NCBI RefSeq assembly: GCF_000327485.1
Contig: NC_019943.1
Span: 2,356,001 to 2,420,000 of the forward strand
Origin: Methanoregula formicica SMSP
Lineage (GTDB): Archaea; Halobacteriota; Methanomicrobia; Methanomicrobiales; Methanospirillaceae
DNA length: 64,000 bases
Reading direction: 5' to 3'
Numbering within the stretch: the first letter of the stretch is position 1; each line of letters starts with the position of its first letter. The translations under genes were made by a program, and so were the position numbers. The notes under the pieces were generated by a model, which did not search any database, was not told where the DNA came from, and saw only the letters and a list, made by a program, of their open reading frames with translations. Positions 12,468-61,669 of this stretch are shown piece by piece.

Positions 12468-12839
12468 ATGACTATGGTGACTATGGATCTTCCAACTGCA
12501 GTCAAGAATTACCAGTTCGGCGAACGGGCAAAATCCGAGCTGATCATGGTGTCCCAGCTCTGTGTTGCGCTCACCGGGTTCAAGGACCCGGAAAAGACCG
12601 GGGCCCGCCGCATGCTCATCATGGTGATGGAGGCAACAAGGGCCGAACTCCAGTTTGCGGTCCACAGTACTGGTCATTCGTCATTCCAGAAGGCAATCAA
12701 TTCCTTAAGCGAAGCGATCTCCCTTGTCGAGAGCGACCAGCCGGACCAGGCATCGCTGAAGATCGGGGCGGCTGTCAGCGCCGCGACAACGCCGGCGCAG
12801 GAAGCATGGCAGGTACTCTCGGAACATGGACTCCTCTGA
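12468..12839 (+). CDS. Conserved-looking helical protein, unknown
   Basis: 123 aa. Predominantly helical, with hydrophobic heptad-like spacing (RAKSELIMVSQLCVALTGFKDPEKT; SFQKAINSLSEAISLVES). No known motif. Three in-frame ATGs (12468, 12474, 12483) compete; the last gives MDLPTAVKNYQF. It overlaps the nitroreductase gene by 14 nt, so both are probably co-transcribed and translationally coupled. Confidence 0.65.
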   Translation: MTMVTMDLPTAVKNYQFGERAKSELIMVSQLCVALTGFKDPEKTGARRMLIMVMEATRAELQFAVHSTGHSSFQKAINSLSEAISLVESDQPDQASLKIGAAVSAATTPAQEAWQVLSEHGLL

Positions 12840-13353
12840 TTTTTACGCGTTCCTTGCCGGGCGGGCATCGGTCCGGGACTTTACGGGCGAGCCCGTATCG
12901 GGAGAGGATCTCGATTACCTCCTGAAATGCGCAAGCACCGCCCCGAGCGCTGGGAACCTGGAGGCGTGGGACGTGGTTGTGGTGACGGAAGAGGAGACCC
13001 GGGAAGCACTCGCTGAGGCCGCATTTAACCAGGAGCATGTCGGGCAGGCACCGCTCATCCTTATTGTCTGCTCGAACTATGTCCGCTCCATGTCGCGGTA
13101 CGGGGAGAGGGGGATCCTCTATGCGCTGGAAGACGCAACGATCGCCTGCACGTATATGATGCTTGCCGCCCGGGCCCGGGGCCTCGAAAGCTGCTGGACC
13201 GGTGCGTTCGACGATGAGGGCGTACGCGAGGTCCTGGACCTGCCGCAACACCTCCGGCCTGTTGCCCTGCTGGTCGTGGGGAAGGGAAAAGAGCCCGCAC
13301 AGTCGCCGCCACGGATGGCTGTCGGGGAGCACGTACATCACGAGAACTGGTGA
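12826..13353 (+). CDS. Nitroreductase family protein
   Basis: 175 aa, the short nitroreductase form. The N-terminal RASVRDFTGEPV and the PSAGNLEAWDVVVV block bind FMN in this family, and LESCWTGAFDDEGVREVLDLP is the usual C-terminal helix pair. It should be an FMN-dependent oxidoreductase using NAD(P)H or possibly F420H2; the substrate is unknown. Confidence 0.85.
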   Translation: MDSSDFYAFLAGRASVRDFTGEPVSGEDLDYLLKCASTAPSAGNLEAWDVVVVTEEETREALAEAAFNQEHVGQAPLILIVCSNYVRSMSRYGERGILYALEDATIACTYMMLAARARGLESCWTGAFDDEGVREVLDLPQHLRPVALLVVGKGKEPAQSPPRMAVGEHVHHENW

Positions 13354-17329: not shown

Positions 17330-17757
17330 TCATCCACATCCCTGACGACCCACTGGATCGGCGTTGATCTCAACACCACCGGCCACATTGCCGTTGCCGC
17401 CGACCCGAAGAGTGGGAAAGTAATGAAACTCGGGAAAAACATCCACTATGTCCATTCGCACTCCACAAAAAACTGCACAAAACACTACAAAGAAGGAAAA
17501 CACTGGAAACTCAAAAAAGCCAAGACCCGCAAACGAAAAAAATTCAAGTCGGCACTCCATACCATCTGCCGTCAGATCGTTTCCTTTGCCGAGGCGCTCG
17601 ATCGCGGGATCCCGGTCATCTACGTGAACCCGGAGTATATGTCCAAGCGGTGCAGCCGCTGCGGGCACTTCGGGCGGAGGACACGGAAGCATTTCGAGGC
17701 CCGTACTGCGGTTTTGTCGCGCACGCCGAAGTGAACGCGGCATTCAACATCGCGACT
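17330..17757 (+). pseudogene. TnpB/OrfB (IS200/IS605-type) remnant
   Basis: The frame reads THWIGVDLNTTGHIAVAAD, then KLGKNIHYVHSHS, a KKAKTRKRKKFK block, IPVIYVNPEYMSKRCSRCG and, after a one-base shift near 17699, GPYCGFVAHAEVNAAFNIA. These are the RuvC-like and zinc-finger parts of TnpB. The N-terminal half and the second RuvC block are missing and the finger is frameshifted, so it is inactive. It abuts and truncates the channel gene. Confidence 0.8.
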
Positions 17758-19515: not shown

Positions 19516-20057
19516 CAAAATCAGGGAATTGCAGGAAATAGTGAGGGGGAATCGCTTTTTTCAAAGCGAAATCCTGTGAAAGAGTGTATGAACAGAGTAC
19601 CCCCGACCAGATTCCTGACAATAAGTTAGAATCTTTTACAATCCGGGACCGTGACGCGCTGTTTTACAGTCTTCCGGACCGCCCCGCCCCTACCCCTCCC
19701 CACCACGCCGAGGGGAGGGAGAGCGCATTGTTGAGCCGGTCCGCGGAGCAGGTGCGAGTGCGCCGAAGGTGCACGAAGCGTGCGGAGCGGGGCGGCGATC
19801 CACACGGCAATGAACTACTTTTTTTGTATCTCCGCAGTAATCAGATGACTGCAGAAGGGAAGTTCTTCCCGAAACAAACTGCACTCGATATTTTTACAGG
19901 GAATAAGGAACGGGTTTGCAAACGGATCCTGCTGGCGCTCTTCATCAGTGAGATGTAACCCGCACCAAAGGAATACCATGCCCTGAATTTAGCTCGCGAG
20001 ATTATGTGAGGATGGCGAGGGCGTTGTGAAACTATTCCTGGGCGGCTGGCATGAAGA
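19516..20057. other. Intergenic stretch, left edge of the accessory island
   Basis: No gene is supported. About 19733-19803 (GAGCCGGTCC..., ending GGCGGCGATC) matches in reverse complement about 23166-23236, an outer pair of the inverted-repeat system around the ardC operon. A C-rich block at 19675-19720 also resembles the complement of 23095-23155, in swapped order. Confidence 0.45.
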
Positions 20058-20405
20058 CGCTCGGTCATGTTCGTCTCCACGGGCTTGCGCCCGTTCCGCT
20101 CACATCACCTCCCTGTTCTCCGGGGTTGTCCTGTTGATAGGATGACGCCCCTGGCTTGTCGCGTTGCTCCGGCACCAGCGGCTGCTCCGGCCCGCTCCTC
20201 ACACCATGCTCCGCATCGTGTTCGTCGCTGTTGATCGGGCATATGCTGTACGTTCAGTGACTCACTCGCACGACGCACAGGGGGCTCGGACTCGCCGCTG
20301 ATGCGGCTCATTACCTTCGCGCCCCTGTCGCGGTGCTCGTTCGGGCCACTGCGGCCACGACCCACCGCCCGCTTCGCTCCTCCCGCCCTTGAAAGGGCGG
20401 GCAGT
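20058..20405 (-). repeat. Island repeat, copy 1 (inverted relative to copy 2)
   Basis: The reverse complement of this segment runs parallel to 22715-23066 with many matching blocks: GGCGGGAGGAGCGAAGCGGG, GAGCCGCATCAGCGG, ACACGATGCGGAGCATGGTG and GACAAGCCAGGGGCGTCATC. Both copies end near GAACATGACCG. They face each other across the ardC operon. Confidence 0.8.
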
Positions 20406-20693
20406 CAGATGCGATAACCACGGGGGAAGGTTTCCGGTTGGGGGTGGGTGGATGCGAGCCGAAACACGGCGACCTTCGCCGTGTCGCGCGAGCATCGGGC
20501 GGGCCCAGGAAGATCAGAGCAGCCCAACAAAACAGGCACACGGGAGCGCGGCGGGGGGCGGGAGAAGGCGAGCCGGATACGGGACCGCAGGGCGGGCCCG
20601 TCGCGCGAGCCTTCGGGGTGGGCCTACTTTTGCCAAGAAAGATAATGCCGGGCGTCGATTATGTACCAACCCGGCAGGGCTCTTTGATTGGCG
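20406..20693. other. Very GC-rich spacer with stem-loops
   Basis: GC-rich DNA with self-complementary parts such as CACGGCGA / TCGCCGTG (about 20466-20484). Open frames on both strands here have low-complexity Arg/Gly/Pro composition and no recognisable protein, so no gene is called. Confidence 0.4.
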
Positions 20694-20855
20694 TCACGGT
20701 GTCCCTGTCCGGGCCACCTTTTTCCTGTACCAGAAAATGATCCTCTTCTTCACCCGGTGCAGCCACCAGCGCAGGCTTTTCACCAGCCCAAAAATAGTTG
20801 ATCGTTTTTTCCGGTACTCCCAGAGTTTTTTACGACTGATCATGGGATACCTCAT
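20694..20855 (-). CDS. Small very basic protein, 53 aa, last gene of ardC operon
   Basis: The ATG at 20855 overlaps the preceding stop as TGATG, a translational coupling arrangement. The product is dense in Lys/Arg and aromatic residues (KKLWEYRKKRS, SLRWWLHRVKKRIIFWYRKK), suggesting nucleic-acid or membrane-surface binding. No family is recognised. It could be a chance frame, but the exact coupling supports it. Confidence 0.5.
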   Translation of the reverse strand: MRYPMISRKKLWEYRKKRSTIFGLVKSLRWWLHRVKKRIIFWYRKKVARTGTP

Positions 20856-21118
20856 CACTGAGTGGGGATCCCACTCGGCAGCGGATCGCAGGCCCACGCG
20901 ATCGCGTCCTCCCGGTGCCTCTGTTCCACCAGATTATCTAAGCCCTCCCACGCGGCCCGGGCTTTCCACGATGCGATAATCTCATCGTGCCGGTAGCGGA
21001 GATCCTGCGCTTCAGCCTGCAGCATGAATGCCCGGCGCTCTATGACGGGTATCCGGGTTTCGATGCGTTCGAGTTCTTCGAGAACCTTGATCGGCATGGC
21101 ATCATAAATCGAGGTCAT
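20855..21118 (-). CDS. Small helical protein, 87 aa, ardC operon
   Basis: The sequence is almost wholly helical and charged (IKVLEELERIETRIPVIERRAFMLQ...), likely a coiled coil. Its start overlaps the ardC stop by 4 nt (ATGA). No homolog is recognised. Position suggests it works with the ArdC-like protein. Confidence 0.65.
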   Translation of the reverse strand: MTSIYDAMPIKVLEELERIETRIPVIERRAFMLQAEAQDLRYRHDEIIASWKARAAWEGLDNLVEQRHREDAIAWACDPLPSGIPTQ

Positions 21119-22026
21119 GCCGTCACCTCTTCCGCTGCATCTGTCCCGATTGCGCCGGTGGGGACCGGGGCAGAAGCCCCGATCATGAAATCCGCTGCCT
21201 TCTCTGCCCTGCCGGCTGCATACATCACGAGATCGGCATCAGCCTTGATCGCCGTGGCCCAGTTCTGGAGGTATGCCGCCTGATTCTGAATTATCGCCGT
21301 TGAGTCGATGCCGGTGAGCGCAGCCAGGTATGCACTCCCGATCTCGGCGACCAGTTCTTCGCGCCCGTAGGTGTCGGACCCGAAGCAGACCGGATCGGTC
21401 CTCTTGAACCGGTCGAGCCGGGGCCCGGTGGAGTGGATGCACTCGTGAAACATCGTCGCATAATAGTACTCGGAGGTTCTGAACTGGCCGATCTCCGGGC
21501 AGGTGATGATATCCATCTGCGGGGAGTAGGCGGCACGGTTTCCCGCCGTAACCCGTATTGAGTGCCGGTCCGTGTAGTCCTGAATAACTGCATCGCATCC
21601 GAGAAGGTGGGCGTTCTCTTTCAGGTCCGGGAGCTTGTAGCCCTTCTCCTGATAATCAGTCTGGGCGATATTGAAAACTACAAAGGCTTTCAGGAAACGG
21701 ATTTGTTTTTTGTTCTCGGTCTCCTTGCCGTTTTCATCGGTCTTGGTGTCGGTCTTCACGGTCCGGCCTGCGTAGATAATCCCGGTCCCGTGTTCTCCGA
21801 ACTGGACCTGTAACCCTGCGGCGAGATACTGGCGATAGGTTGCCCAAAAAGGGAGAGGGTAGGAGCTGAGTCCGAGGATCAACCGGTTCAGCCCGGTGTA
21901 TGCCCTGCCGCTGAAGAGGTTACGCGGGCCGTTCTCCGTCCACGGTTTCAGCCAGGGGATCTTTCCCTCCGAGAGGGATTTTATGATCCTCTCGTTGATC
22001 TGTGCTTTTACGTCAGCGGCTTTCAT
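21115..22026 (-). CDS. ardC: ArdC-like antirestriction protein with zincin domain
   Basis: 303 aa. The N-terminal domain (residues 1-110; VKAQINERIIKSLSEGKIPWLKPW, NLFSGRAYTGLNRLIL) is the ArdC ssDNA-binding module. The C-terminal domain contains HECIH (HExxH) near residue 190 and a downstream REELVAEIGSAYLAA glutamate helix, so the zinc-metalloprotease-like site is complete. ArdC proteins protect incoming DNA against restriction during conjugation. It is the second gene of a four-gene overlapping operon and marks this as a mobile segment. Confidence 0.87.
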   Translation of the reverse strand: MKAADVKAQINERIIKSLSEGKIPWLKPWTENGPRNLFSGRAYTGLNRLILGLSSYPLPFWATYRQYLAAGLQVQFGEHGTGIIYAGRTVKTDTKTDENGKETENKKQIRFLKAFVVFNIAQTDYQEKGYKLPDLKENAHLLGCDAVIQDYTDRHSIRVTAGNRAAYSPQMDIITCPEIGQFRTSEYYYATMFHECIHSTGPRLDRFKRTDPVCFGSDTYGREELVAEIGSAYLAALTGIDSTAIIQNQAAYLQNWATAIKADADLVMYAAGRAEKAADFMIGASAPVPTGAIGTDAAEEVTA

Positions 22027-22391
22027 GCGGTCACCCCGACGGGCTGCATAGTCGAGACGTTCGCATATTTCCGCTCGCCCTTGAGCATCCCTTTTACCTG
22101 TGCGAGCGGGGCGACGTACTGCACATCGTTGATCGAGATCATCACGGCTTTACCGGACCGGGTGATCCAAGCTTTCCCGACCGGGGCCGCGTCTGCACTC
22201 TTCATTACATCCGATATATCGTAGACCGGCGCGGGCCAGTGGTCTTCGAGCCTGCAGACTTCCCCGGCGGGGATAACCGCCTGCATGGTCTTGACATCGA
22301 TACGGACCGAGCCGTTATAGAGGCGAGCCGCCCCTATGTGCTCGAACTTAACATCTGTTTTTGTGTTTGGCGTCACGGTGATTTTCACCAT
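22023..22391 (-). CDS. Unknown small protein, first gene of ardC operon
   Basis: 122 aa from ATG 22391; longer versions of the frame run into AT-rich noncoding DNA. The N-terminus MVKITVTPNTKTDVKFEHIGAAR and strand-rich text (AWITRSGKAVMISINDVQYVAPL) suggest a beta-rich fold. Unrecognised. Its stop overlaps the ardC start by ATGA. Confidence 0.65.
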   Translation of the reverse strand: MVKITVTPNTKTDVKFEHIGAARLYNGSVRIDVKTMQAVIPAGEVCRLEDHWPAPVYDISDVMKSADAAPVGKAWITRSGKAVMISINDVQYVAPLAQVKGMLKGERKYANVSTMQPVGVTA

Positions 22392-22514
22392 ACATTCATC
22401 GACGTTAGAGCATATAACTCTCCGCCGTGCGCAGGGTGAAAGTAAAAGCGGTGCGTTGTCCGATTTGAGAAATAAGGCAATTGCGCAGAATTTAATTTTT
22501 ATTTTTACGCAAGG

Positions 22515-22690
22515 CCCGCCCAGGCACACAACGCGACAGGCCGCTGATGCGTCCCGTAACCGCGCCGTGTGACCATCACCCGCCCTCTCGGTTTCCTGTT
22601 GGTACGCGATCGCCCCGGTTGGACCCGCCCGACAAAGCGAGCGACCGTCCGCTGATGCGTCCGGTAACCGTCGCTTTGTCCTCCCTCCCC
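22515..22690. repeat. Two related stem-loops sharing one loop sequence
   Basis: CACAACGCG...CGCGCCGTGTG (about 22527-22571) and ACAAAGCGA...TCGCTTTGT (about 22634-22681) are stems. Both enclose CGCTGATGCGTCC followed by GTAACCG, about 110 bp apart, while the stems differ in sequence. Compensated stems around a fixed loop point to a structural element rather than chance. Confidence 0.55.
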
Positions 22691-22714
22691 CGACATGAAA
22701 CCGACCTCCGTCCT

Positions 22715-23066
22715 ATCGCTATGACTGCCCGCCCCTGGGCGGGAGGAGCGAAGCGGGAGGTGGGTAGTGGCCCAGCGGCCCGAGGGAGCGCCGCTTCAGG
22801 GTGCGAAGGTAACGAGCCGCATCAGCGGTGAGTCCGAGCCCCTGATGCGTCGCGCGAGCGAGTCACTGAGCGTTATTCACTTGCTCAGTACACAGCGACG
22901 AACACGATGCGGAGCATGGTGTGAGGAGCGGGCCGGGGCAGCCGCTGGCGCCGGAGCATCGCGACAAGCCAGGGGCGTCATCCTACCAACAGGACAATCC
23001 GGAAAACAAGGGAGGTGATGTGAAGCGAGCCGGAGCATCAGCGAGGACGAGTGAACATGACCGACC
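22715..23066 (+). repeat. Island repeat, copy 2
   Basis: It pairs with copy 1 in inverted orientation and shares its right half with copy 3 at 37701-37876 in direct orientation. It includes a perfect 8-bp hairpin CGCATCAG / CTGATGCG (about 22817-22848). Open frames across the repeat give low-complexity text (DKPGASS..., ARTSEHDR) shared between copies, but no start signal is convincing. Confidence 0.8.
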
Positions 23067-23110
23067 GATCTCCTACCAGCCGGACACGATGGTTCCCGCC
23101 CTCGGTGTGG

Positions 23111-23151
23111 TGGGCGGGACTCCAGGGTGGGCGGGACTCCAGGGTGGGCGG
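23111..23151 (+). repeat. 17-bp tandem repeat, about 2.4 units
   Basis: The unit TGGGCGGGACTCCAGGG occurs at 23111-23127 and 23128-23144, followed by a partial third unit. It lies just after repeat copy 2. Confidence 0.75.
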
Positions 23152-23447
23152 TCCGGAGGATAATCACCCGTAGATCGCCGCCCGCGTCGCATGCTTCGCA
23201 CAGCTTCGCCGTGCTCGCACCGCTCTGCGACCGGCTCTGTACATCTAAAATTTACCATACTTCACTCCCGCCCTTGGCCTCTTGAGCTGAATAATAATAC
23301 TCTGTGGGAGGCGGGACTTAGATTTTGCTGAAGGGATGATATCTTTTTCAAAATCGAATTCCTAAACCTTTTTCGATTCAAAGACCATGATTAGTAATCG
23401 GAGGGAAATTAACGACAGAATCTAATCAGAATACCGGCATCCGGGAT

Positions 23448-26400
23448 TTGCTCAATAAACTTAAACCAAATACCTGCCTGGAAGGGCCCCTTTTTCCTGA
23501 ACCTATCCAGATTATTACTACGATACCCAAAGGTGACAAATCAATTGAGATTATCGGGGAAGGTCTTCAAACAAAATCGGTTCACCGCAGGACTCTTTCT
23601 TATGATCAATTGCCGTCTCTGATTTTTTTGGGAGAACAGGACTCATTTACCGGCGATGCCCGTAAGTTCCGTCTCGGGGTTGAGGCAATACGTCTAGGAC
23701 TTGCATACGAATACGACCCCTATTTTACCCTCTCTATTGCTCGTATCGATCCTCTCCCTCACCAGCTTGAAGCGGTGTATGATTATTTTCTGAATCTTCC
23801 CCGCATACGGTTTCTCCTGGCCGATGACCCCGGTGCTGGTAAAACCATCATGGCCGGACTTCTGATTAAAGAATTAAAAATACGGGGCCTTATAAAACGA
23901 ATTCTTTTAGTGACACCGGCAAACCTCACATTCCAATGGCAACGTGAGATGCATGAAAAATTCCGCGAATCCTTTAAAATTGTTAATGCTGAGGATCTTC
24001 GCTCGATGTATGGCCAGAATCCCTGGCAACAGTATGATCAGGCCGTGACGTCAATTTCATGGGTCTCACGCATTGAAGATGCGAATCAGAGCCTTCTGCG
24101 GAGTCATTGGGATCTCATCATCGTCGATGAAGCGCACAAGATGAGTGCTTACAATGAAGATAAAAAGACCCTCGCCTATCAATTGGGCGAACACTTGTCG
24201 GAGATGACGGATCATTTTCTGCTAATGACAGCAACGCCCCATAAGGGTGATCCTGATAATTTCCGATTGTTCCTTGAACTGCTTGACAAGGATGTGTATG
24301 GAGATATCAAGAGCCTTGAGAAAGCAATCGAGAACCGGAGTGCTCCGTTTTATCTTCGCCGTGTCAAAGAAGCTCTCGTCTCTTTCCCAGATCCAGAAAC
24401 CGGCAAAACAATCAGTCTGTTTACTAAACGAAACGTCCGGACAATCGGGTTTGAGATCAATGATGAGGAACTCGAATTTTACGATGGACTCACGCGGTTT
24501 GTCGAAGACCAGTCAATCAAGGCGGCAGCCGACAATTCTATCCGAGGTAGGGCCCTCGGGTTCACTATGGCAATGTTGCAGCGGCGGTTTGCATCCAGTA
24601 TGTACGCCGTGAGACGTAGTCTCGAACGGATGAAAGAAAAAAGGGAAATTATTCTCAAAGATCCAGAAGCGTACCGGAAGAAGCAGATAGAGAAGAGAGT
24701 CCCCGAGGATTATTACGATCTTACCGATGAAGAGCAACAAGAGGTACTTGCAGAACTGGAAAATGCTGTAATCTCGTACAATCCCGCTGATTTGCGAAGT
24801 GAGATAACCACATTGGGTCTCCTAATCGGGCAGGCCAAGGTTCTTGAGAACAAAGAGATCGAAACTAAACTTACCAAACTTCGTGAGGCAATAACCACGC
24901 AAGGGATCTTTAAAGATCCGTCAATGAAACTCCTTATCTTCACTGAGCATAAGGACACCCTTGACTATCTCGTTGAAAAGCTACGGGCCTGGGGGCTCAC
25001 CGTTACACAGATCCATGGAGGAATGAAGGTAGGTAACCGCAATGAACCCGGGACCCGCCTCTGTGCAGAGAAGGATTTCCGAGAGAATTGTCAGATTATG
25101 GTTGCGACGGAGGCAGCAGGAGAAGGTATCAATCTCCAATTCTGTTGGTTCATGGTCAATTATGATATACCATGGAATCCGGTCCGGCTTGAGCAGCGGA
25201 TGGGACGTATCCACCGGTACGGGCAAGAAAAAGATTGCCTGATCTTCAATTTTGTTGCAACCAATACACGCGAGGGGAGAGTTCTTCAAACATTGTTTGA
25301 TCGGATACGGCAGATTGAAGACGATCTTGATCCTGGCCGCACTGGGAAAATCTTCAACGTTCTCGGTGATATTTTCCCGGCGAATTCACTCGAAAAGATG
25401 CTTCGGGATATGTACTCACAGAACCTGCGTCCCGATATGATACTTGATCGGATCGTGGAGGTTGTGGATACCCAGCGGTTTAAGCATATAACCGATTCAG
25501 CACTTGAAGGATTGGCAAAACGTGAACTGAACCTGAGCGTGATTGTCGGGAAACGCGAAGAAGCAAAAGAGCGCCGGCTTGTTCCAGAGGTTATCGAGGA
25601 CTTCTTCATCCAGTCAGGAGCAGTATGCGGAGTTGTTCCCAAGGAGACTTCCCATGGTTCGCATATGTATCGGTTGGGGAAAATTCCCAGAAGCCTGCAG
25701 ATTGTGGGTGAGAGGCTGGAACCCCGGTACGGAACGCTGGGAAAAGAGTACCAGAAGATTGCCTTTAGCAAAGATATCCTGAAAAAGGATAGTACGGTCG
25801 AATGGGTGACACCCGGTCATCCGCTGTTCGAATGTGTCCGAGAGGATCTCCAGGAACAAGTCCAGAAAGATCTTCGGGAGGGGGCGGTCTATTATGATCT
25901 GAATCGCACTCTTCCTGCACTCCTCGATGTTTTCTCTGCATCCGTAAAGGATGGGTTGGGTAACAGTATTCACCAACGCCTTTTCGTTGTTGAAACGTTC
26001 CAAGGCGGTTTGATGAACATCCGTCAGCCCACTATGTTTCTGGATCTCCAGCCTGCAGAAACCGGAGCAGATGTACCAGATATCGCGATCATGCCCCAGC
26101 CTGCACAGATTGAATCCTATCTCCTCGACAATAATCTCCAGACATTCCTGAATGAAGTGAGACAGGAACGGCTGAGACAGACAGCAACCATTGAGCGACA
26201 CATCGAGATCAGCTTAAAGGAATTAATCAATCGTCAGAATACCCGGTTGATTGATCTCTTTGCGCGGCAGCAGAGTGGGGTGTCCGATTCCTTACTTCCT
26301 GCAAATATCAAGACAACGCAGGACCGTCTCGATGAGCTGAATAACCGACTTGACCGGAGAAGAAAAGAACTGGAGCAGGAACGGACATGTAGCATCGGTG

Positions 26401-26864
26401 AGATCCGGCATCTTGGCCGGGCGTGGGTGCTCCCCCATCCAGAGCGAAAATCCCCTGGCATGGTAATGATGGTCAGAGATGACGAGATAGAACGAATTGC
26501 TGTGCAAGCCGTTATACGCCAAGAGGAAGCGAGAGGCTGGAAGGTTCAGAGTGTAGAGACAGAAGACCGAGGATTCGATCTCATCTCCCGTAAGCCCCAC
26601 CCTGAAGATCCCAGCACTGCAATAGAAGTGCGGTTTATTGAAGTGAAAGGACGGGCATCGATTGGTGAGGTTGCTCTCTCATCCAATGAATACAAGACCG
26701 CCAGCCGTTTGAAAAATGATTACTGGCTCTATGTGGTATTCAATTGTGCAACAAACCCGGAGATCACTATCGTGCAGGACCCCGCCCGGCTCGGATGGCA
26801 GCCACTCGTGAAGATCGAACATTATCATATCGGAGCGGATAAAATACTGGGGGCAAAACAATGA
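23448..26864 (+). CDS. SNF2-type helicase with C-terminal DUF3883 domain
   Basis: About 1138 aa. Helicase motifs: Walker A DPGAGKT (near residue 128), DEAH in LIIVDEAHKM, TATPHKGD, and C-lobe TEAAGEGINLQF with RLEQRMGRIHRYGQ. Residues about 1045-1130 (GFDLISRKP, VRFIEVKGRA) form a DUF3883 domain with a nuclease-like E-x-K pattern. It resembles the helicases of methylation-linked phage defence. TTG 23448 is the first accepted start codon, but the frame is open from 23391 and GGAGG at 23400 points to an earlier non-standard start (ACG 23412 or TTA 23409). It probably opens the defence operon. Confidence 0.88.
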   Translation: MLNKLKPNTCLEGPLFPEPIQIITTIPKGDKSIEIIGEGLQTKSVHRRTLSYDQLPSLIFLGEQDSFTGDARKFRLGVEAIRLGLAYEYDPYFTLSIARIDPLPHQLEAVYDYFLNLPRIRFLLADDPGAGKTIMAGLLIKELKIRGLIKRILLVTPANLTFQWQREMHEKFRESFKIVNAEDLRSMYGQNPWQQYDQAVTSISWVSRIEDANQSLLRSHWDLIIVDEAHKMSAYNEDKKTLAYQLGEHLSEMTDHFLLMTATPHKGDPDNFRLFLELLDKDVYGDIKSLEKAIENRSAPFYLRRVKEALVSFPDPETGKTISLFTKRNVRTIGFEINDEELEFYDGLTRFVEDQSIKAAADNSIRGRALGFTMAMLQRRFASSMYAVRRSLERMKEKREIILKDPEAYRKKQIEKRVPEDYYDLTDEEQQEVLAELENAVISYNPADLRSEITTLGLLIGQAKVLENKEIETKLTKLREAITTQGIFKDPSMKLLIFTEHKDTLDYLVEKLRAWGLTVTQIHGGMKVGNRNEPGTRLCAEKDFRENCQIMVATEAAGEGINLQFCWFMVNYDIPWNPVRLEQRMGRIHRYGQEKDCLIFNFVATNTREGRVLQTLFDRIRQIEDDLDPGRTGKIFNVLGDIFPANSLEKMLRDMYSQNLRPDMILDRIVEVVDTQRFKHITDSALEGLAKRELNLSVIVGKREEAKERRLVPEVIEDFFIQSGAVCGVVPKETSHGSHMYRLGKIPRSLQIVGERLEPRYGTLGKEYQKIAFSKDILKKDSTVEWVTPGHPLFECVREDLQEQVQKDLREGAVYYDLNRTLPALLDVFSASVKDGLGNSIHQRLFVVETFQGGLMNIRQPTMFLDLQPAETGADVPDIAIMPQPAQIESYLLDNNLQTFLNEVRQERLRQTATIERHIEISLKELINRQNTRLIDLFARQQSGVSDSLLPANIKTTQDRLDELNNRLDRRRKELEQERTCSIGEIRHLGRAWVLPHPERKSPGMVMMVRDDEIERIAVQAVIRQEEARGWKVQSVETEDRGFDLISRKPHPEDPSTAIEVRFIEVKGRASIGEVALSSNEYKTASRLKNDYWLYVVFNCATNPEITIVQDPARLGWQPLVKIEHYHIGADKILGAKQ

Positions 26865-26913
26865 TTCTGATCAATTATTTCTCTGTAGACAATTACGACG
26901 GACAGGAATTCTC

Positions 26914-29901
26914 ATGACCTCACCCCCTTACCCCAAACGCCTCATCGAAGTCGATCTCCCGATCAAGAAAATCAGTGTGCACGCCCGTCGGGAAAAAGCA
27001 ATCCGTCACGGCCACATCTCGACGCTGCATATCTGGTGGGCTCGCCGTCCGCTTGCAGCCTGTCGGGCAGTGATCTGTGCAGCTCTCTGGCCAGACCCAG
27101 CTGATCAACTCTGCCCGGAATCATTCAAAGCAGAAGCAAAGAAACAGATGATGCAGTTCTGGAACCAAGCAGATACAGAGTCCCGAATCATTAACCATCC
27201 ACTTGAACTCCGTACAGCACTTCTTGATTTCATTGCTGATTTTGCGAACTGGGACAACTCAACTGATATGCGGTATTTGAATACGGCACGGGCACTAACG
27301 CAATCAGCGCATGAAGCATTGGGTGGGAAGCCAGGTTCTCGCCCGCTAGTTGTAGACCCGTTTGCTGGAGGGGGATCAATCCCACTCGAAGCACTTCGCA
27401 CTGGGGCCGATGCATATGCGAGTGATCTCAACCCGGTTGCGGTGCTGCTCAATAAGGTATTACTTGAATATATCCCGAAGTACGGGGAGTTACTCCCCGA
27501 CGAGGTGGCGAAATGGGGCAAGTGGATGAAAGTAGAAGCGGAAAAAGAACTCGCGGAGTATTATCCAAAAGATCCAGGCGGTGCGACACCAATTGCCTAC
27601 CTCTGGGCGAGGACGATCACCTGCGAGGGTCCGGGATGCGGGGTGGAGGTTCCGCTTATCCGTTCGCTTTGGCTTGCAAAGAAGTCTAACCGTTCCGTCG
27701 CCCTCCAGCTTATTCCAAATCCTGTTGAGAAGCGAGTAGATATTGAAATTATCCGCGATGCAAAGGCCGCTGAGGTGAAGAGTGGCACAGTGAAGCGGGG
27801 TTCGGCGACATGCCCCTGCTGCGGATATACTACTCCAGTGGCGTCAGTGCGGAAACAGCTCAAGGCTCGGCATGGCGGGACTGAAGACGCCCGAATGTTC
27901 TGTGTAGTGACGACGAAAACCTCCGAGCAAGGACGGTTCTATCGGTTACCTACACAGAGAGATCTTGATGTGGTACGGCGAGCGAAGGAAGAACTGGAGC
28001 GAAGGAAGAAGGCGTGGACAGGTGAGTTGAGTCTTGTCCCGAGTGAATCCACGACGCATTATCATACTTTTGTTAATCGGGGATCAATTTATGGAATGAA
28101 TACCTGGGATAATTATTTTACATCTCGACAGTTGTTATCTCTTTCATATTTGGTTAATTTGGTAAATAAAGTACGAAATAAAAGTATTTCCACTGGAAAT
28201 AAAGGGGTGGAGATTCCACTACAGACTTGTTTGGCATTTATCGTCGATAAATTAGCAGATAAAAGTAGTTCGTTGTGTCGTTGGAAATCATCCGCGGAAT
28301 ACATGGCGGGAAATACATTTAGCAGACAAGCATTGCCAATGGTTTTCGATTTTTGCGAGACAAATCTTTTCGGTGATGTAACAGGAGATATTAATTCCGA
28401 AGTTGTTTGGCTTGAAAAGATGCTACGACATGGGTGTTCATCACTAGATCATCAAGGTCATGTAGAACTAGCTTCTGCAACTTCTCATCCATTACCCAGC
28501 GATTCAGTTCAAGGATTTGTAACCGATCCCCCGTATTACTACTCAGTTCAATATGCGGATCTTTCAGACTTTTTTTATGTATGGCTTCATCGTAGTTTAG
28601 GCGCACTCTATCCAGAACTTTTTACCACTCAGTTCACTCCCAAAAATGATGAGATTATTGTTCAATCCCCTGGGCATGAATTTGCTGCAGAAGGAAAAAA
28701 TAAAAAATTTTATGAATCACGAATGCACGTGGCGATGGAAGAGGGGCGTCGAATTCTTGCTCCTAATGGGATTGGAGTTATCGTTTTCGCTAATACATCA
28801 ACGTCCGGATGGGAGACGATGCTTCAATCACTTGTTGAATCCGGCTGGGTGATTGTCGGATCCTGGCCAATCGATACAGAAATGGCTCAACGGATATTAG
28901 CACAGAACCGGTCGGTTCTCGCCTCCTCTATCCACCTCGTCTGTCGTCCACGCGAGACTCCTGATGGTTCCGTTCGTAGCGATGATGTGGGCGACTGGCG
29001 GGATGTACTCCACGAACTCCCGATCCGGATCCATGAATGGATGCCCCGGCTTGCTGCAGAAGGGGTTGTCGGTGCAGATGCGATCTTTGCTTGCCTCGGC
29101 CCCGCACTCGAAATTTATTCTCGATATTCCCGAGTGGAGAAGCCAAATGGGGAACAGGTGTTGCTTCACGAATATCTGGAGAAAGTCTGGGAAACGGTCG
29201 CACGGGAGGCACTCACAGTTATCTTCAAAGATGTCGATACGAGCGGGTTTGAAGAGGATGCCCGGCTCACGGCAATGTGGCTCTGGACACTCTTTGCAAA
29301 CAGTGGGGAAATAAACGGGGTGGCAGCATCAGAGCAAGACGATGATGACACCGTAGATGAGGATGAGAAGAGCACCGGGAAAAAGAGCGGGGCAAAGAGC
29401 GGGTTTATCCTTGATTACGATACAGCTCGTAAAATTGCCCAGGGGCTCGGGGCTCATCCGGATGAGATGAAGACACTGGTTGATGTCAAGGGCGATACAG
29501 CCCGGCTCCTGCCGGTCTCGGAGCGGGCACAATTTCTCTTCGGGAAACAGGGTGTTACAAAAATCCCTATAGTTGCGAAGAGGAAAGGCAAGCAGTTAAC
29601 GCTCGGCGAATCAACCGGGGACGGAGCTGATGATGCAGTCATTTCAGCAAAAGCCTCCATGGAGGGAGATTTTGACCTCGTGCTCGGGAAGACCGTGCTT
29701 GACAGTGTTCATCAGAGCATGCTCCTCTTCGGTGCCGGACGGAGCGATGCTCTCAAGACATTCCTTGTCGATAACGGAGCCGGCAAAGATCCCCGGTTCT
29801 GGCGGCTGGCACAGGCACTGTCGGCGTTGTACCCGAAATCGTGTGAAGAGAAGCGGTGGGTTGATGGGGTGCTCGCGAGGAAGAAGGGATTGGGGTTGTG
29901 A
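26914..29901 (+). CDS. DUF1156 DNA adenine methyltransferase
   Basis: 995 aa. The N-terminus (KRLIEVDLPIKKISVHARREKAIR..., WWARRPLAACR) is the DUF1156 signature. Motif I VVDPFAGGGSIPLEAL (about residue 146) binds SAM and the catalytic motif IV VTDPPYYYSVQYAD (about residue 536) indicates amino-group methylation. A CxxC pair (GSATCPCCGY) sits near residue 298. The acidic segment near 806-820 (EQDDDDTVDEDEKSTGKKSG) is a linker. In defence systems it would mark host DNA. Codons about 375-650 are clearly more AT-rich than the ends. Confidence 0.88.
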   Translation: MTSPPYPKRLIEVDLPIKKISVHARREKAIRHGHISTLHIWWARRPLAACRAVICAALWPDPADQLCPESFKAEAKKQMMQFWNQADTESRIINHPLELRTALLDFIADFANWDNSTDMRYLNTARALTQSAHEALGGKPGSRPLVVDPFAGGGSIPLEALRTGADAYASDLNPVAVLLNKVLLEYIPKYGELLPDEVAKWGKWMKVEAEKELAEYYPKDPGGATPIAYLWARTITCEGPGCGVEVPLIRSLWLAKKSNRSVALQLIPNPVEKRVDIEIIRDAKAAEVKSGTVKRGSATCPCCGYTTPVASVRKQLKARHGGTEDARMFCVVTTKTSEQGRFYRLPTQRDLDVVRRAKEELERRKKAWTGELSLVPSESTTHYHTFVNRGSIYGMNTWDNYFTSRQLLSLSYLVNLVNKVRNKSISTGNKGVEIPLQTCLAFIVDKLADKSSSLCRWKSSAEYMAGNTFSRQALPMVFDFCETNLFGDVTGDINSEVVWLEKMLRHGCSSLDHQGHVELASATSHPLPSDSVQGFVTDPPYYYSVQYADLSDFFYVWLHRSLGALYPELFTTQFTPKNDEIIVQSPGHEFAAEGKNKKFYESRMHVAMEEGRRILAPNGIGVIVFANTSTSGWETMLQSLVESGWVIVGSWPIDTEMAQRILAQNRSVLASSIHLVCRPRETPDGSVRSDDVGDWRDVLHELPIRIHEWMPRLAAEGVVGADAIFACLGPALEIYSRYSRVEKPNGEQVLLHEYLEKVWETVAREALTVIFKDVDTSGFEEDARLTAMWLWTLFANSGEINGVAASEQDDDDTVDEDEKSTGKKSGAKSGFILDYDTARKIAQGLGAHPDEMKTLVDVKGDTARLLPVSERAQFLFGKQGVTKIPIVAKRKGKQLTLGESTGDGADDAVISAKASMEGDFDLVLGKTVLDSVHQSMLLFGAGRSDALKTFLVDNGAGKDPRFWRLAQALSALYPKSCEEKRWVDGVLARKKGLGL

Positions 29902-29984
29902 TTAAAAATCAGAGGCGGCTTTAGTACTTCCACCGATCTTTAATCCCCAGAATTCGTATTTTCACTCTGCGCGGGAATGGATTA

Positions 29985-30015
29985 ATAGTTTATAAATCTC
30001 ACTAATTATTAGCAG
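29985..30015 (+). promoter_or_regulatory. Probable internal promoter of the accessory trio
   Basis: TTTATAAAT around 29988-29996 lies about 30 bp before the start at 30025, within a 123-bp gap, the only sizeable AT-rich gap between the methylase and the trio. This fits an archaeal TATA box. Confidence 0.45.
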
Positions 30016-30024
30016 AGATGCTGT

Positions 30025-31254
30025 ATGAGTTACATTGAGGTCGAGGAGCTGTCAAGGGAACCGGAGACCCTTATCCGTTCCTGCAAAATAAAAGTAAATG
30101 GAAAATCGTTCACCACTCCGAGCAGATCGGTTAGTGTAACGAAGTCAACAAAAACCGAACTAGATGTTGCAAAACCATTGATTACTCAAAACAATACCCC
30201 CCTCGGGGAGGTATATACAAGAATCAGTCTTGACGATCTTTCCCGGATTGCAGATGATAGCAAGCAAGGACATGAAAGAGGCGAGGAATTCAGCAAGAGT
30301 ATCTCCTTACGATTAGAACAATTGAGAGATCTCGGAACGATACCTTACCTTGTTATTTCAGTGGTCGATTCGAATGGCAATCCTTACAATCAGTTACCCG
30401 AGAAAAAAATCCTCGACTTGATTTTTAATTTGTTATGGGGTACCCAGAACAATGCAATTATTGTTCCTCCTCTGATGGGGATTTTCCCGGAAGAAAAACA
30501 ATACCTCGATCTGATCAATGCTTTGCATGAACGCCAGGAGTCAAGCAACGGACGCAAACCCCTCCCCATCATGCCGATTATTCCTTCAGCCTATGCACTT
30601 GTTGCACCAACACTCCTGAAACAGTACTGGGATATCGGATGCCGGTTATTTGCATTCAACTGTGAAAACAAAAAATACGGGGCGTTCGGTTTCGTCATTG
30701 AAAAGGCACATACAGAATTGGATAAATTCAGTAAGGAATCGAAGGAATCATACGCGATTCACGCTCTTAATTCAAAATTAAAGACTGGTAAGGGAGACAC
30801 AAGCCGTATCAACAGTATTCTTGGATCCGGCTTTGGATTTGACTCCTTCAGTTCTAACCATATAATTCCTAAATTTATCCCCCCGAGCACTGATATAAAG
30901 GATTTTTTCGTATTCAATGATGGAGATTATGGATTTTCATCGTTCTCAAAAGTGGTTGATCCCGACAAAGTGCTGAACACGAACATCTTCAAAAAATATG
31001 ATCTCGGCGAATTCGATAATTTGTCCTCAAGTGTGAAACTTAAAGTCTGCAACTCACACAATATCGAAAAAAGCATTCGGGAAATTCAGTCGTATCCGAA
31101 GTTCATTGAGAGTGAAAAATTAGTTACCTATCTATCGAATAAAGAGAAAATTAAAGGGGAGATCCTGGAGATCAAGAATATCGCCGGTCACATTAAAAAC
31201 CCTGAAATGGCCAATGAAAAGGCAAGTAAAAAGAAAAAGTGGTTTAAAAAATGA
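30025..31254 (+). CDS. Unknown 409-aa protein in defence island
   Basis: Not recognised. Residues about 95-260 alternate strands and helices (IPYLVISVVDSNGNPY, NAIIVPPLMGIFPEE, PIMPIIPSAYALVAPTLLKQYWDIGCRLFAFNCEN), which could be a TIM-barrel-like core (inference). Residues 270-300 contain GSGFGFDSFSSNHIIP. The C-terminus is Lys-rich (KASKKKKWFKK). It overlaps the following winged-helix gene by ATGA and lies between the methylase and the DUF499 ATPase, so a role in the same system, as sensor or effector, is plausible. Confidence 0.7.
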   Translation: MSYIEVEELSREPETLIRSCKIKVNGKSFTTPSRSVSVTKSTKTELDVAKPLITQNNTPLGEVYTRISLDDLSRIADDSKQGHERGEEFSKSISLRLEQLRDLGTIPYLVISVVDSNGNPYNQLPEKKILDLIFNLLWGTQNNAIIVPPLMGIFPEEKQYLDLINALHERQESSNGRKPLPIMPIIPSAYALVAPTLLKQYWDIGCRLFAFNCENKKYGAFGFVIEKAHTELDKFSKESKESYAIHALNSKLKTGKGDTSRINSILGSGFGFDSFSSNHIIPKFIPPSTDIKDFFVFNDGDYGFSSFSKVVDPDKVLNTNIFKKYDLGEFDNLSSSVKLKVCNSHNIEKSIREIQSYPKFIESEKLVTYLSNKEKIKGEILEIKNIAGHIKNPEMANEKASKKKKWFKK

Positions 31255-31727
31255 TTGAGAATTTATCCACTACACAACTGGCAATTTTGTCATTACTGAA
31301 GGCGAAGAATAAGAAGGACATCGAATATGCTCCGATTCCCGGTGTGACCCATGTTGTGAAGGAATTATTCGCACTGAAGAATACGAAGCTGGGAAACGAA
31401 TTACTTGATGAGTTAAATTTCGAACCGGATAATTTTGGTCCGTTTGATGAAACGGTTAGTGCAGCACTCGAAGACCTCAATGCGATAGGTTTAATCAGAG
31501 TCGATACGATCGGGTCGTCCCGACAGATACAATTAACGCAAAAGGGAAGAGAACTTTCCGATAGTATCTGGGATGTATTGGACGACGATGTGAAGGGGCT
31601 TGTTTCATACATTAAAATCAATTTCAATAATCTTTCAACAGAGGGTCTGTTAAATAAAATATATGCACTTTATCCTGAGATGACGGTGAATTCGAAGTCA
31701 CGGGTGGCATTAAAATATCGGCACTAG
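31251..31727 (+). CDS. Winged-helix protein (YwgA-like)
   Basis: 158 aa. LTTQ-type helices at the start, FEPDNFGPFDETVSAALEDLNAIGLI in the middle and a C-terminus YPEMTVNSKSRVALKYRH resemble YwgA-type winged-helix proteins often found beside toxins and defence genes. It may repress or neutralise the neighbouring PIN protein or regulate the trio. Coupled to the upstream gene (ATGA), 10 bp from the next. Confidence 0.65.
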   Translation: MIENLSTTQLAILSLLKAKNKKDIEYAPIPGVTHVVKELFALKNTKLGNELLDELNFEPDNFGPFDETVSAALEDLNAIGLIRVDTIGSSRQIQLTQKGRELSDSIWDVLDDDVKGLVSYIKINFNNLSTEGLLNKIYALYPEMTVNSKSRVALKYRH

Positions 31728-31737
31728 GAGATGCCAA

Positions 31738-32199
31738 ATGCTCTTTTTTGCGGACAGTTGTTTTTTTATCGGCCTTCATTATGATAAAGATAACAACCAC
31801 GATGCCGCAGAAGCAATCTGGAACCACCTGATCCAAGAGCAGATGATTGATGGGTTGAATTCTTTTTTAGTAACGGATTATATCCTCATCGAAGTTTTTC
31901 AGACACTACAAAATAAAATTGGTTTCAAAAAAACAAAGGACATCCACGGCAGTCTCATCGAAGGCTGCAAACTCCAGCATATCACGAGAGAGATGATCGA
32001 TAATGCCATTCATCAAAAATTACTTCCTTCCTGTAACCATTCAACAAAAAAGCCCAAAATCGGACTGGTTGATGGGACATCTTTGATTGTAATGGACCAG
32101 CAGGATATTCCAAGAATTATCAGTTTTGACGACCATTTCGATTCGATTCCTTTGATTAAGAGGATTTATAGTGTTGAGACTATTCCAAGCGCTCATTAA
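31738..32199 (+). CDS. PIN-domain ribonuclease
   Basis: 153 aa. The acidic residues of a PIN site are visible: D6 in LFFADSCFF, E in YILIEVFQTL (about 61), D in LVDGTSLIVM (about 120) and D in IISFDDHFD (about 138). PIN domains are metal-dependent RNases, often VapC-type toxins. Within a defence operon it may be the abortive effector, with the winged-helix protein as its partner. Confidence 0.82.
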   Translation: MLFFADSCFFIGLHYDKDNNHDAAEAIWNHLIQEQMIDGLNSFLVTDYILIEVFQTLQNKIGFKKTKDIHGSLIEGCKLQHITREMIDNAIHQKLLPSCNHSTKKPKIGLVDGTSLIVMDQQDIPRIISFDDHFDSIPLIKRIYSVETIPSAH

Positions 32200-32275
32200 C
32201 GAAGCAGCAGCCGATCATATCTTATAACTTTTTTAATCAAGGGGCGCAAATACTCCTCAACTGAGAAGGCGGCAC

Positions 32276-35221
32276 ATGGCACTAAAACCCTGGTACAAAA
32301 TCGTCACTCCCCGTGATGATCTCAAAGAAGGACGACCGCTAGATGCAGCGGAATTCGCAGTCAACCTGGATCTGGTCCGAAATGGTCAGGCAAGCGAGGA
32401 TTATCTCGACCCAAAACAGTTTTTCAAAAGAACGTACCTCACTGAGAATCTTACCGGTCTCGCTGCCGAAGTGATACGCCGCCTCTCCGGTGAACGCACA
32501 CAGACCTCTGCCGTCTTCAATCTCGCCACCCAGTTCGGCGGGGGAAAAACACACTCCCTCACGCTCCTCTACCATCTGGCAAAGGAAGGTCCGGCTGCAA
32601 ATAACCTGCCCGGGGTCATGACCATTCTCAACCGTGCAGAGATCGACACCGTGCCCAACGCCGCCATTGCCATCTTCGACGGGAAAGAATTCGATTCTTT
32701 GTCTGGCCGCGGTGGCGATGACGGGACGCCGCTGCGGAAAACTCCGTGGGGTGAAATCGCATTTCAGCTCGGCGGAGAGAAAGCGCTGAAAATTCTCAAG
32801 GAGCACGAGGAAAAACTGACCGCTCCTTCCGGGGACGTAATCCGGAAATTCCTGCCAAAAGACACGCCCTCCCTCATCCTCATGGACGAGCTCATGAATT
32901 ATGTGACCCGCACCCGCAAGAGCGGGCTTGCCGATCAATTCTATGCTTTCCTCCATAACCTCTCAGAAGCCGCGCGGGGAATGGATCGCGTTGTCCTTGT
33001 CGTTTCAGTGCCAGCGTCTGAGCTTGAGATGACACCGAGCGACCAGGAGGATTACGACAGGATCAAGAAACTCCTTGACCGTGTGGGAAAACCTGTCCAG
33101 ATCTCTCATGAAAAAGAAACTGCTGAAATCATCCGCCGCCGCCTCTTTGAATGGGAGGGTGTTCCGAACGAGGCAAATAAGATCATCCAGGAATATGCGG
33201 ACTGGGTTGTTGAACACCGGCAGCAGGTACCTTCATGGTTCCCGGTTGACCGGGCCCGTGAAGAGTTCAAAGCATCCTATCCTTTTCATCCGCTAGTTAT
33301 ATCAGTCTTTGAACGAAAATGGCGGGCACTCCCCCGGTTCCAGCAGACCCGCGGAGTATTGCGTATGCTTGCTCTTTGGGTCTCTCAGGCTTATCGGGAG
33401 GGCTATCTCGGTAAGCATAAAGACATCCTTATCGGGATCGGTTCCGCCCCTCTTGATGAATCCCTTTTCCGTGCTGCAGTCTTTGAACAGCTTGGGGAAT
33501 CGAGGCTTGAAGCGGCAGTAACAACCGATATCTGCGGTAAGAGTGACTCGAATGCTACACGACTTGACGCGGAAGCAACTGAACCGATCCGGAAAGCCCG
33601 GCTCCACCGCAAAGTAGCAACAACCATCTTCTTCGAATCCAATGGGGGTCAGGCAAGGACTGCAGAAGCGACGCTCTCGGAGATACGACTCGCGGTCGGG
33701 GAGCCGGACCTGGATATCGGTAACATCGAGACCGTACTTGAAGCACTCGCTCCACCAAACGGAGCCTGTTTCTATCTCGATGTCTCCAAAAACCGGTACT
33801 GGTTCAGCATGAAGCCGAACCTGTCCAAGGTTCTCGCTGACCGGAAAGCAAGTGTGGATCCCAAAAAGATCGACGAGCGGTTACTTGAAGAAATCCGGAA
33901 AGTCTTCACTGTTGGCGGGGGTATCGAAAGGATTTATTTCCCGACGAAGAGTGGTCAAATCCCGGATTCCGCACAACTCAAGCTTATCATAATTTCTCCG
34001 GGTTACCCGGCCACGGACTCACGCACCCTCGAATGCATCGACAAGATGACCAAAGAGTCTGGTTCTTCCGCCCGGACATTCAAAAACGCTCTCATCTGGG
34101 CCGTAGCAGATGACATCAATCAGCTGAAAGATGATACGAAAAAGGTTCTTGCATGGGAAGAGATCAAAGGTGAAAAAGATGAACTTGGCCTTGACGACAC
34201 CCAGAAGAAACAACTCGATGAACATGTCGGCAAAGCAGCACGGGATGTAAAAGAGAGCGTCTGGAGGACATACAAAAAAATTGCTGTTCTTGGCAAAGAC
34301 AACACCCTCAGGGTTATTGACCTTGGCCTTGTTCATTCAAGTTCTGCTGATTCCATGGTCCGCCTAATTCTGGACCGGCTCCGCAATGATGGTGATATCA
34401 CTGACGATGTAAGTCCAAACTTCCTGATACGGAACTGGCCTCCGGCGTTTAAGGAATGGAGTACTCGCTCGGTGCAGAATGTCTTTTATGCATCTCCGCT
34501 CTTCCCCCGGCTCACTCATCCCGAACGTGTCAAGGATGCAATCGTTCGAGGTGTCACTAACGGCGTATTGGCATATGTCGGAAAAGCAGGTACCAAGTAT
34601 GATCCGTTCCTCTACAAAACATCCGTCAGTCCCCTTGAAATAGAAATTTCTGATGATATATTCATCATCACCTCACAGGAAGCTGAAGAATACCTTGTTA
34701 GAACAAGAAAACCCGCATGCCTTACAACTCTGGAAATCGTCTCACATCAGGGTGAATGCAAACCCAATGAGTCGTTTACCTTCAGTGTGAAAGGATACGA
34801 CCAATATGATCAACCCATTGACGTGGAGGCAATTGTTTGGGAAGTAAATGGCGGGGAAATTGATGACCTGGGTAATTTTACATCCCCGGGCGCTGCCGGT
34901 GTTTATCAGATATCTGCACATTCGGGAAAAATCTGTGCAAATACCACAATCTCTGTCAGAGAAATCCATACCCAGATCCCTGGTGAGGAATTCCCTATTG
35001 CAGAACACGGCACCTATGCGGACGAACAGGTAATTTGGCAGGGAGAACTGACAAAACAGAAATGGATGTCATTTTTCACAAAGATCCTCAAGGACATTGA
35101 GAATGACAAGGGAATCCGGATTCATATTAACTTTTCAATCACCGATAACAAGGCAATAAGTCAGGACAGAATCAGAGAGATAGAAGCCGCGATGCGGGAG
35201 TTCGGGATGGATAAGAAATAA
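32276..35221 (+). CDS. DUF499 ATPase
   Basis: 981 aa. ATQFGGGKTHSL (about residue 90) is Walker A and SLILMDELMNYV (about residue 200) is Walker B of the DUF499 AAA-like family. Residues about 820-910 form an Ig-like beta domain (CKPNESFTFSVKGYDQYDQPIDV...), and the end is a charged domain. DUF499 ATPases travel with DUF1156 methylases and large helicases in antiviral islands. Separate from the trio by 76 bp. Substrate and oligomeric state unknown. Confidence 0.88.
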   Translation: MALKPWYKIVTPRDDLKEGRPLDAAEFAVNLDLVRNGQASEDYLDPKQFFKRTYLTENLTGLAAEVIRRLSGERTQTSAVFNLATQFGGGKTHSLTLLYHLAKEGPAANNLPGVMTILNRAEIDTVPNAAIAIFDGKEFDSLSGRGGDDGTPLRKTPWGEIAFQLGGEKALKILKEHEEKLTAPSGDVIRKFLPKDTPSLILMDELMNYVTRTRKSGLADQFYAFLHNLSEAARGMDRVVLVVSVPASELEMTPSDQEDYDRIKKLLDRVGKPVQISHEKETAEIIRRRLFEWEGVPNEANKIIQEYADWVVEHRQQVPSWFPVDRAREEFKASYPFHPLVISVFERKWRALPRFQQTRGVLRMLALWVSQAYREGYLGKHKDILIGIGSAPLDESLFRAAVFEQLGESRLEAAVTTDICGKSDSNATRLDAEATEPIRKARLHRKVATTIFFESNGGQARTAEATLSEIRLAVGEPDLDIGNIETVLEALAPPNGACFYLDVSKNRYWFSMKPNLSKVLADRKASVDPKKIDERLLEEIRKVFTVGGGIERIYFPTKSGQIPDSAQLKLIIISPGYPATDSRTLECIDKMTKESGSSARTFKNALIWAVADDINQLKDDTKKVLAWEEIKGEKDELGLDDTQKKQLDEHVGKAARDVKESVWRTYKKIAVLGKDNTLRVIDLGLVHSSSADSMVRLILDRLRNDGDITDDVSPNFLIRNWPPAFKEWSTRSVQNVFYASPLFPRLTHPERVKDAIVRGVTNGVLAYVGKAGTKYDPFLYKTSVSPLEIEISDDIFIITSQEAEEYLVRTRKPACLTTLEIVSHQGECKPNESFTFSVKGYDQYDQPIDVEAIVWEVNGGEIDDLGNFTSPGAAGVYQISAHSGKICANTTISVREIHTQIPGEEFPIAEHGTYADEQVIWQGELTKQKWMSFFTKILKDIENDKGIRIHINFSITDNKAISQDRIREIEAAMREFGMDKK

Positions 35222-37700: not shown

Positions 37701-37876
37701 CAGCGACGAGCATTCCGCGGGAGCGGTATGCGAGGAGCGGGCCCTTGCAGCCGCTGGCGCCGGAGCAGCGCGACAAGCCAGGGGCGTCCTCATCCCAACA
37801 ATCAACCGAAGAAAAACAGCGAGGTGATGTGAAGCGAGCCAGAGCATCAGCGAGGACGAGTGAACATGACCGGGCG
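37701..37876 (+). repeat. Island repeat, copy 3
   Basis: It aligns with the right half of copy 2: CAGCGACGA, GAGGAGCGGGCC, CAGCCGCTGGCGCCGGAGCA, GCGACAAGCCAGGGGCGTC, GAGGTGATGTGAAGCGAGCC and AGCATCAGCGAGGACGAGTG all recur in order. It is in direct orientation to copy 2 and lies at the right edge of the defence island. Confidence 0.85.
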
Positions 37877-37941
37877 TCCGCGTGCCGGCCAAACAATAAA
37901 AAGAAGGGTATAATATCAATTACTTTTATATCAAATACAAT

Positions 37942-59856: not shown

Positions 59857-59929
59857 GCCGGTGTGGCAGAACGGTTAATGCCTTCGCCTGCAAAGCGAAT
59901 GTCTGGGGGTTCGACTCCACCCGCCGGCG
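59857..59929 (+). tRNA. tRNA-Cys (GCA), unusual discriminator
   Basis: Cloverleaf: acceptor GCCGGTG / CGCCGGC, anticodon stem TTCGC / GCGAA with loop CTGCAAA (anticodon GCA), variable TGTCT, T-arm GGGGG TTCGACT CCACC. The T-stem has a G-A mismatch and the base at the discriminator place is G, with TCCA following one base later. Canonical tRNA-Cys has U73. It lies 22 bp before cysS. Confidence 0.85.
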
Positions 59930-59950
59930 TCCAATACCAGGAAGACCATA

Positions 59951-61210: not shown

Positions 61211-61346
61211 TCAAATCCTCATAAAAAGGTTCCAGATCTCCCCCTTTTTCAATACGGATAAAGAGAGATGAGGACGGGATGCCAGTATCAGCACCGCACC
61301 CGGAAGGCCGGGTTTTTCTTACCAGCATGACACATGGGGGGTCGCG

Positions 61347-61629: not shown

Positions 61630-61655
61630 AGTGGATCACCATAACAACGTAAGAG

Positions 61656-61669
61656 TTCACAATTGTTAA
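61656..61669. promoter_or_regulatory. Palindrome variant TTCACAATTGTTAA before winged-helix gene
   Basis: Identical to the cysK site. It lies between the leftward winged-helix gene and the rightward tRNA-Cys. Confidence 0.68.

Follow-up and report, generated by a model that had tools for sequence, protein, structure and literature searches.

Antirestriction genes are known mainly from bacterial plasmids and phages. The ArdC protein of plasmid R388 binds single-stranded DNA and shields incoming DNA from restriction (PMC7213743). In the leading regions of plasmids, anti-defence genes are preceded by hairpins of the Frpo type, i.e. sequences that fold as single strands (PMC11541004). Papers on archaeal dark-matter islands and on polyvalent proteins describe no inverted repeats around ardC. 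Two further groups of elements bear on the present locus: archaeal integrative elements that target tRNA genes with a tyrosine recombinase, and the MITE, fold-back and REP/REPIN sequences, which lack an internal transposase and have inverted repeats and hairpin ends.

A window of 64,000 nucleotides from the chromosome of Methanoregula formicica SMSP (genome G000; G000:C1:2356001-2420000) contains an ardC operon between nested inverted repeats. The segment appears to belong to a family of small mobile cassettes with exchangeable cargo in the Methanoregulaceae that had not been described before. Its ArdC matches plasmid ArdC (R388/pSa; PDB 6i89 and 6sna; E 1e-36) along its entire length, with both domains and the HExxH zinc motif, but belongs to a chromosomal, archaeal subfamily with <60% identity to any plasmid copy, and is set apart by unique neighbours (i.e. 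'up', orf87 and orf49) and by inverted arms. As in the Frpo islands, anti-restriction cargo lies beside sequences that fold as single strands; the arms of this archaeal unit differ in that they stand inverted on either side of the operon and are far longer and of modular build, no conjugation genes were seen, and a promoter role would be hypothetical. With the tRNA-targeting elements the unit shares tRNA 3'-end fragments, a common motif at the edge and nearby recombinases, but the recombinase lies outside and the unit is defined by a hairpin-rich arm pair around an exchangeable operon. Unlike MITEs, fold-back elements and REP sequences, it has a conserved four-gene operon and no target duplication, and a Y1/RAYT-type transposase is absent from the genome. 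This would be an archaeal family whose antirestriction genes reside in chromosomal cassettes with hairpin arms, which are exchangeable, pass from species to species and sit beside intact defence systems. The 'up' protein and the covarying arm hairpins provide starting points for studying how mobile DNA in archaea withstands restriction, perhaps by way of a single-stranded stage, a subject little explored in methanogens.

Layout of the unit

An earlier note on this DNA had placed an inverted pair of ~350 bp at 20058-20405 and 22715-23066. Alignment bore this out and extended the pair to 413 bp (20043-20452 versus 22679-23082; 82% identity, E about 1e-104). The second pair of the note (about 19733-19803 and 23166-23236) was recovered at 19733-19803 and 23170-23237 (71 bp, 80%, E 5e-9) and flanks the first. 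Both pairs enclose the minus-strand operon up-ardC-orf87-orf49, as had been described, and the absence of a transposase was upheld, no transposase family being represented among the operon proteins.

The unit starts with a left terminal imperfect hairpin (LO; 19733-19803, plus strand), defined by an alignment of 30 termini with the consensus RAGCCGGTC. A spacer between terminus and arm follows (19811-20029, plus), which is absent in most copies and present as fragments in L100 and L105, and then the hairpin-rich left arm (20043-20452, plus) with its covarying core hairpin. Inner hairpin modules border the operon on its downstream side (20453-20640, plus; 83–95% conserved in other copies) and, from comparison and alignment of copies, on its 5' side (22530-22720, plus). 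Alignment places the right arm at 22679-23082 (minus), and the unit ends with the right terminal imperfect hairpin (RO; 23170-23237, minus), identified from the termini alignment and hairpin pairing. The Hma defence system directly adjoining the unit is complete (HmaA, HmaB and HmaC by PADLOC; 23448-35221); it is a neighbour and not a part of the unit, other copies having other neighbours. A solitary arm remnant (37701-37890, unstranded; 74–83% match to the arms) lies on the far side of the Hma genes. A TnpB-like gene remnant with a Cas12f1-like TNB domain is located at 17423-17734.

Genes of the operon

The four ORFs of the operon overlap or are closely spaced, and 'up' (22023-22391, minus) is the first of them. 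It encodes a hallmark protein of 122 aa with no match in Pfam, NCBIfam, PHROGs, PDB (by sequence profile), plasmids or phages; its predicted fold was not used as the model was of low confidence (pLDDT 44). An AT-rich stretch upstream of 'up' is a candidate ordinary promoter. The second predicted protein (21115-22026, minus) has an ArdC-N single-stranded-DNA-binding domain followed by a zincin-like MPTase-PolyVal metallopeptidase domain with an HECIH motif. Both Pfam matches were above cut-off (PF08401, E 3e-28; PF18818, E 9e-28) and, with the match to the solved R388 ArdC, the protein is filed as ArdC by homology. The third gene, orf87 (20855-21118, minus; 87 aa), encodes a predicted long coiled-coil helix (model pLDDT 82), and the fourth, orf49 (20694-20843, minus), a small basic peptide of 49 aa beginning MISRKKLWEYRKKRSTIFG that is kept in most copies examined. 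Median dN/dS values of 0.157 for up, 0.115 for ardC (14 copies) and 0.185 for orf87 (9 copies) indicate that these three genes are maintained by purifying selection.

Distribution and exchange of cargo

A search for the same unit at other loci, as the earlier note had proposed, identified a second, diverged copy in G000 (about 1175.8-1178.5 kb), with an ardC of 90% identity (dS between the two copies, 0.47), a stop within orf87 and a truncated left arm. A weak third 'up' homologue (G000:C1:762318-762617) had no detectable inverted repeats around it. Units with ArdC (i.e. type I) are found again, with varying flanks, in roughly 15 genomes of the Methanoregulaceae. Of 199 genomes from the order, 51 had matches to the arm sequence or terminal hairpin, and close relatives of ardC (85% or more) were confined to the same family. 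The named records with the unit were Methanoregula or Methanomicrobiales assemblies, and searches of viral contigs, plasmids and phages with the ardC subfamily, 'up' and the arm sequence found no units. The unit of genome G121 carries an extra DUF6876 gene between orf87 and an arm (L077, 9195-9578). One genome contains both an armed copy (L137) and an armless up-ardC-orf87 copy (L145, 5492-7196; ArdC at 76%), indicating that the arms are dispensable for persistence of the operon.

At L111, the arms frame another operon, comprising an 'up' paralogue, a coiled-coil ORF, small ORFs, DUF6573 and HTH_17, and use of this 'up' protein as a query led to further loci. These type II units have DUF6573 and an HTH gene in place of ardC, share 'up' with the type I unit of the window and are consistent in their make-up across genera. 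In L184 and L187, the outer arms are separated from the inner ones by extra genes, as though cargo could enter between modules.

The arms are GC-rich, and the earlier note had held that a merely GC-driven similarity would undo its reading. Chance or base composition is refuted as the source of the arms by the E value of the inner pair, by conservation of the arms across genera and by compensatory changes (see below). Sequence searches, on which all genome-wide counts rest, located arm sequence at no more than some six sites across the 2.82-Mb genome, two of which frame the second ardC copy. Furthermore, an inverted repeat of at least 60 bp (in most cases 150–550 bp) straddles 29 of 33 'up' loci versus 3 of 72 control ORFs, all three of the latter being at a single locus (L121, repeats 6024-6190 and 12687-12853).

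Lateral movement between species

Between G000 and G121, dS was 0.168 for ardC versus 1.77 for a neighbouring chromosomal gene encoding a 602-aa membrane protein, presumably DUF2070. A type II unit was 99.77% identical over 3,490 bp between L175 (genome G175) and L178 (genome G117) in unrelated flanks, and the single stretch of chromosome compared for the two genomes showed about 70% identity. Both loci are on metagenome-assembled contigs in which binning errors are possible; such an error would be insufficient because the flanks differ. On these sequence comparisons, it is well supported that the cassettes move laterally and do so without an internal transposase. Of the non-autonomous mobile unit suggested in the earlier note, the mobility thus stands, whilst the form of a classical transposon finds no support, since the duplications expected at the target were missing.

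Several observations would suit a non-autonomous transposon (MITE-like or fold-back), in which a transposase acting from another locus would recognise the terminal hairpins and mobilise the DNA that they enclose. The unit has no transposase of its own, the 30 aligned termini start sharply at RAGCCGGTC with differing DNA outside, and an operon-less derivative of 0.54 kb occupies the site that holds a full unit in G121. This explanation is nevertheless considered unlikely. Target-site duplications were absent from all five units with both ends (i.e. the window, L077, L078, L083 and L093), no solitary clean empty site was found, and type II units do not stop at the arms but continue as far as a tRNA fragment. 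The transposase that would best suit hairpin ends, the Y1 type of IS200/IS605, is missing from G000 and from almost every genome of the genus in which a unit occurs; the search for this Y1 HUH family (PF01797) was negative for G000 and most carriers and positive for controls. Action of a Y1 transposase in trans was ruled out by its absence from the host genome. The two hallmarks of DDE-type transposons, target-site duplication and a transposase within the element, were likewise both absent. An integron cassette was also rejected, as attC-type core sites (RYYYAAC/GTTRRRY) are absent from the hairpin ends and the terminal hairpins begin RAGCCGG.

Folding of the arms and termini

The terminal 64–70 nt form an imperfect hairpin in which 95.6% of cells pair. 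Changes on both sides affected 38 cells, and 0 of 500 shuffles came as high; the two types of terminus, however, amount for the most part to a single split. In a second hairpin, at the arm core, covariation was detected in four of five pairs and 0 of 500 shuffles reached the score. Arm identity between copies was 86–99%, which exceeds the neutral expectation from ardC synonymous divergence. The compensatory changes in both hairpins make it probable that the arms and termini function in a folded, single-stranded form (DNA or RNA) and, taken with the arm identity, we infer that the arms have been selected as such. Rfam gave no match to a known structured RNA at the gathering threshold or at E<=1. 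As folded DNA or RNA, the arms might protect the strand, recruit ArdC or 'up', or regulate expression during entry.

A more specific possibility is that the arms are single-stranded promoters or initiation sites (Frpo/ssi-like), which would fold on entry, recruit a polymerase or primase and switch on ardC ahead of restriction. The compensatory changes, the plasmid-type cargo (ArdC and DUF6573) and the placement of Frpo-type hairpins before plasmid anti-defence genes (PMC11541004) are all in keeping with this proposal. The arms, however, are inverted on both sides of an operon for which one side only is upstream, and the AT-rich stretch before 'up' could act as an ordinary promoter. Moreover, Frpo sequences are defined by bacterial sigma-70 boxes, and no relaxase or conjugation gene was found near the unit. 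Overall, a promoter function of this type appears distinctly improbable.

Orientation of the operon

At a shared tRNA-Gln flank the operon takes opposite orientations: an LO terminus abuts the flank in both cases, but the downstream end of the operon faces the tRNA in L077 (G121) and the 5' end does so in L086 (G179). Nor is the type of terminus linked to the side of the operon in L082, L083, L085, L090, L092 and L139. The difference at the shared flank suggests inversion between the arms as the simplest account of these sequences, with gene conversion of the termini as an alternative account. The earlier note had also raised an invertible segment, and the contrast between G121 and G179 provides that idea with support of a comparative kind only. 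Were inversion a regulatory switch, recombination between the arms would turn the operon on and off and mobility would be incidental. The observed orientations are compatible with such a switch but it is very improbable: the candidate promoter lies within the invertible part, so that a flip would have no obvious effect on expression, arm pairs within loci are just 73–94% identical and thus poor substrates for frequent recombination, no site-specific invertase is present in the unit, and conversion of termini could yield the same pattern.

tRNA-gene edges and recombinases

The window contains a 16-bp 3' end of tRNA-Gln (19599-19614, minus; an exact match, with none expected by chance) that resembles an att scar. 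It is abutted by an att-like motif (19615-19633, minus), which reads GATTCTAACTTATTGTCAG on that strand. The edge common to L175 and L178, the only edge defined for these units, is GAGTCCCCATAGCAGCATCC, which corresponds to the 3' end of tRNA-Glu but for 1–2 bases. The motif that follows this fragment, AACTNATTGTCAG, has an exact copy joined to the tRNA-Gln fragment at 19599-19633 of the window. Versions with 1–2 mismatches occupy the equivalent place in L084, L094, L095 and L098, and a tRNA-Leu-like fragment is present in flank class B. The 3' ends of tRNA genes form an edge in two independent cases, the window (tRNA-Gln) and L175/L178 (tRNA-Glu). In unit-free genomes, flank classes F, D and A are adjacent to one another and several classes are parts of a single tRNA-Gln hot spot; several flanks (genes E, F, G and H) are not tRNA-derived.

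Tyrosine recombinases were found near the units and never inside the arms. A phage-integrase-family gene (genome 2434380-2435603) adjoins the intact tRNA-Gln of G000 (genome 2435660-2435738, minus), i.e. at the far end, about 60 kb to the right of the scar and outside the window. In L188, an intact recombinase gene lies between tRNA-Phe and the arms, a second tRNA-Phe end not being found within the examined stretch, and recombinase fragments are located near the units of L096, L099, L108 and L175. The 60-kb stretch from window position 19599 to genome position 2435738 holds housekeeping genes and so is not one simple island, which suggests a rearrangement. Joining the flanks of five units produced no contiguous clean empty site, and no unit combined both att ends with an intact empty site. 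Integration associated with tRNA genes fits these data better than a classical transposon does.

The unit is treated as a mobile cassette variant on tRNA-integrating islands, and membership of a transposon family is not claimed. With moderate confidence, we favour a new family of laterally mobile cassettes that ride on islands integrated at tRNA 3' ends. Each cassette would comprise an operon starting with 'up' between long inverted hairpin-rich arms, with ArdC carried by type I. The divergence between copies in one genome, the lack of a recombinase within the units, the flanks of other than tRNA origin, the housekeeping genes in the 60-kb stretch and the armless operon weigh against this reading. 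As to how the cassette moves, we infer that the work would be done by a tyrosine recombinase of the phage-integrase type belonging to the host island. Recombination between the arms may occasionally flip the operon, and its products might aid survival of the island against restriction in a new cell. A quite unlikely variant is a minimal class of archaeal element whose arms would be recognised in single-stranded form, whose 'up' protein, helped by ArdC or other cargo, would process or protect a single-stranded intermediate, and for which tRNA islands would be a favoured landing place only.

Elsewhere in the window, at 59857-61892, two tRNA-Cys genes flank an ORF (59951-61210) whose product is cysteinyl-tRNA synthetase-like by sequence only.
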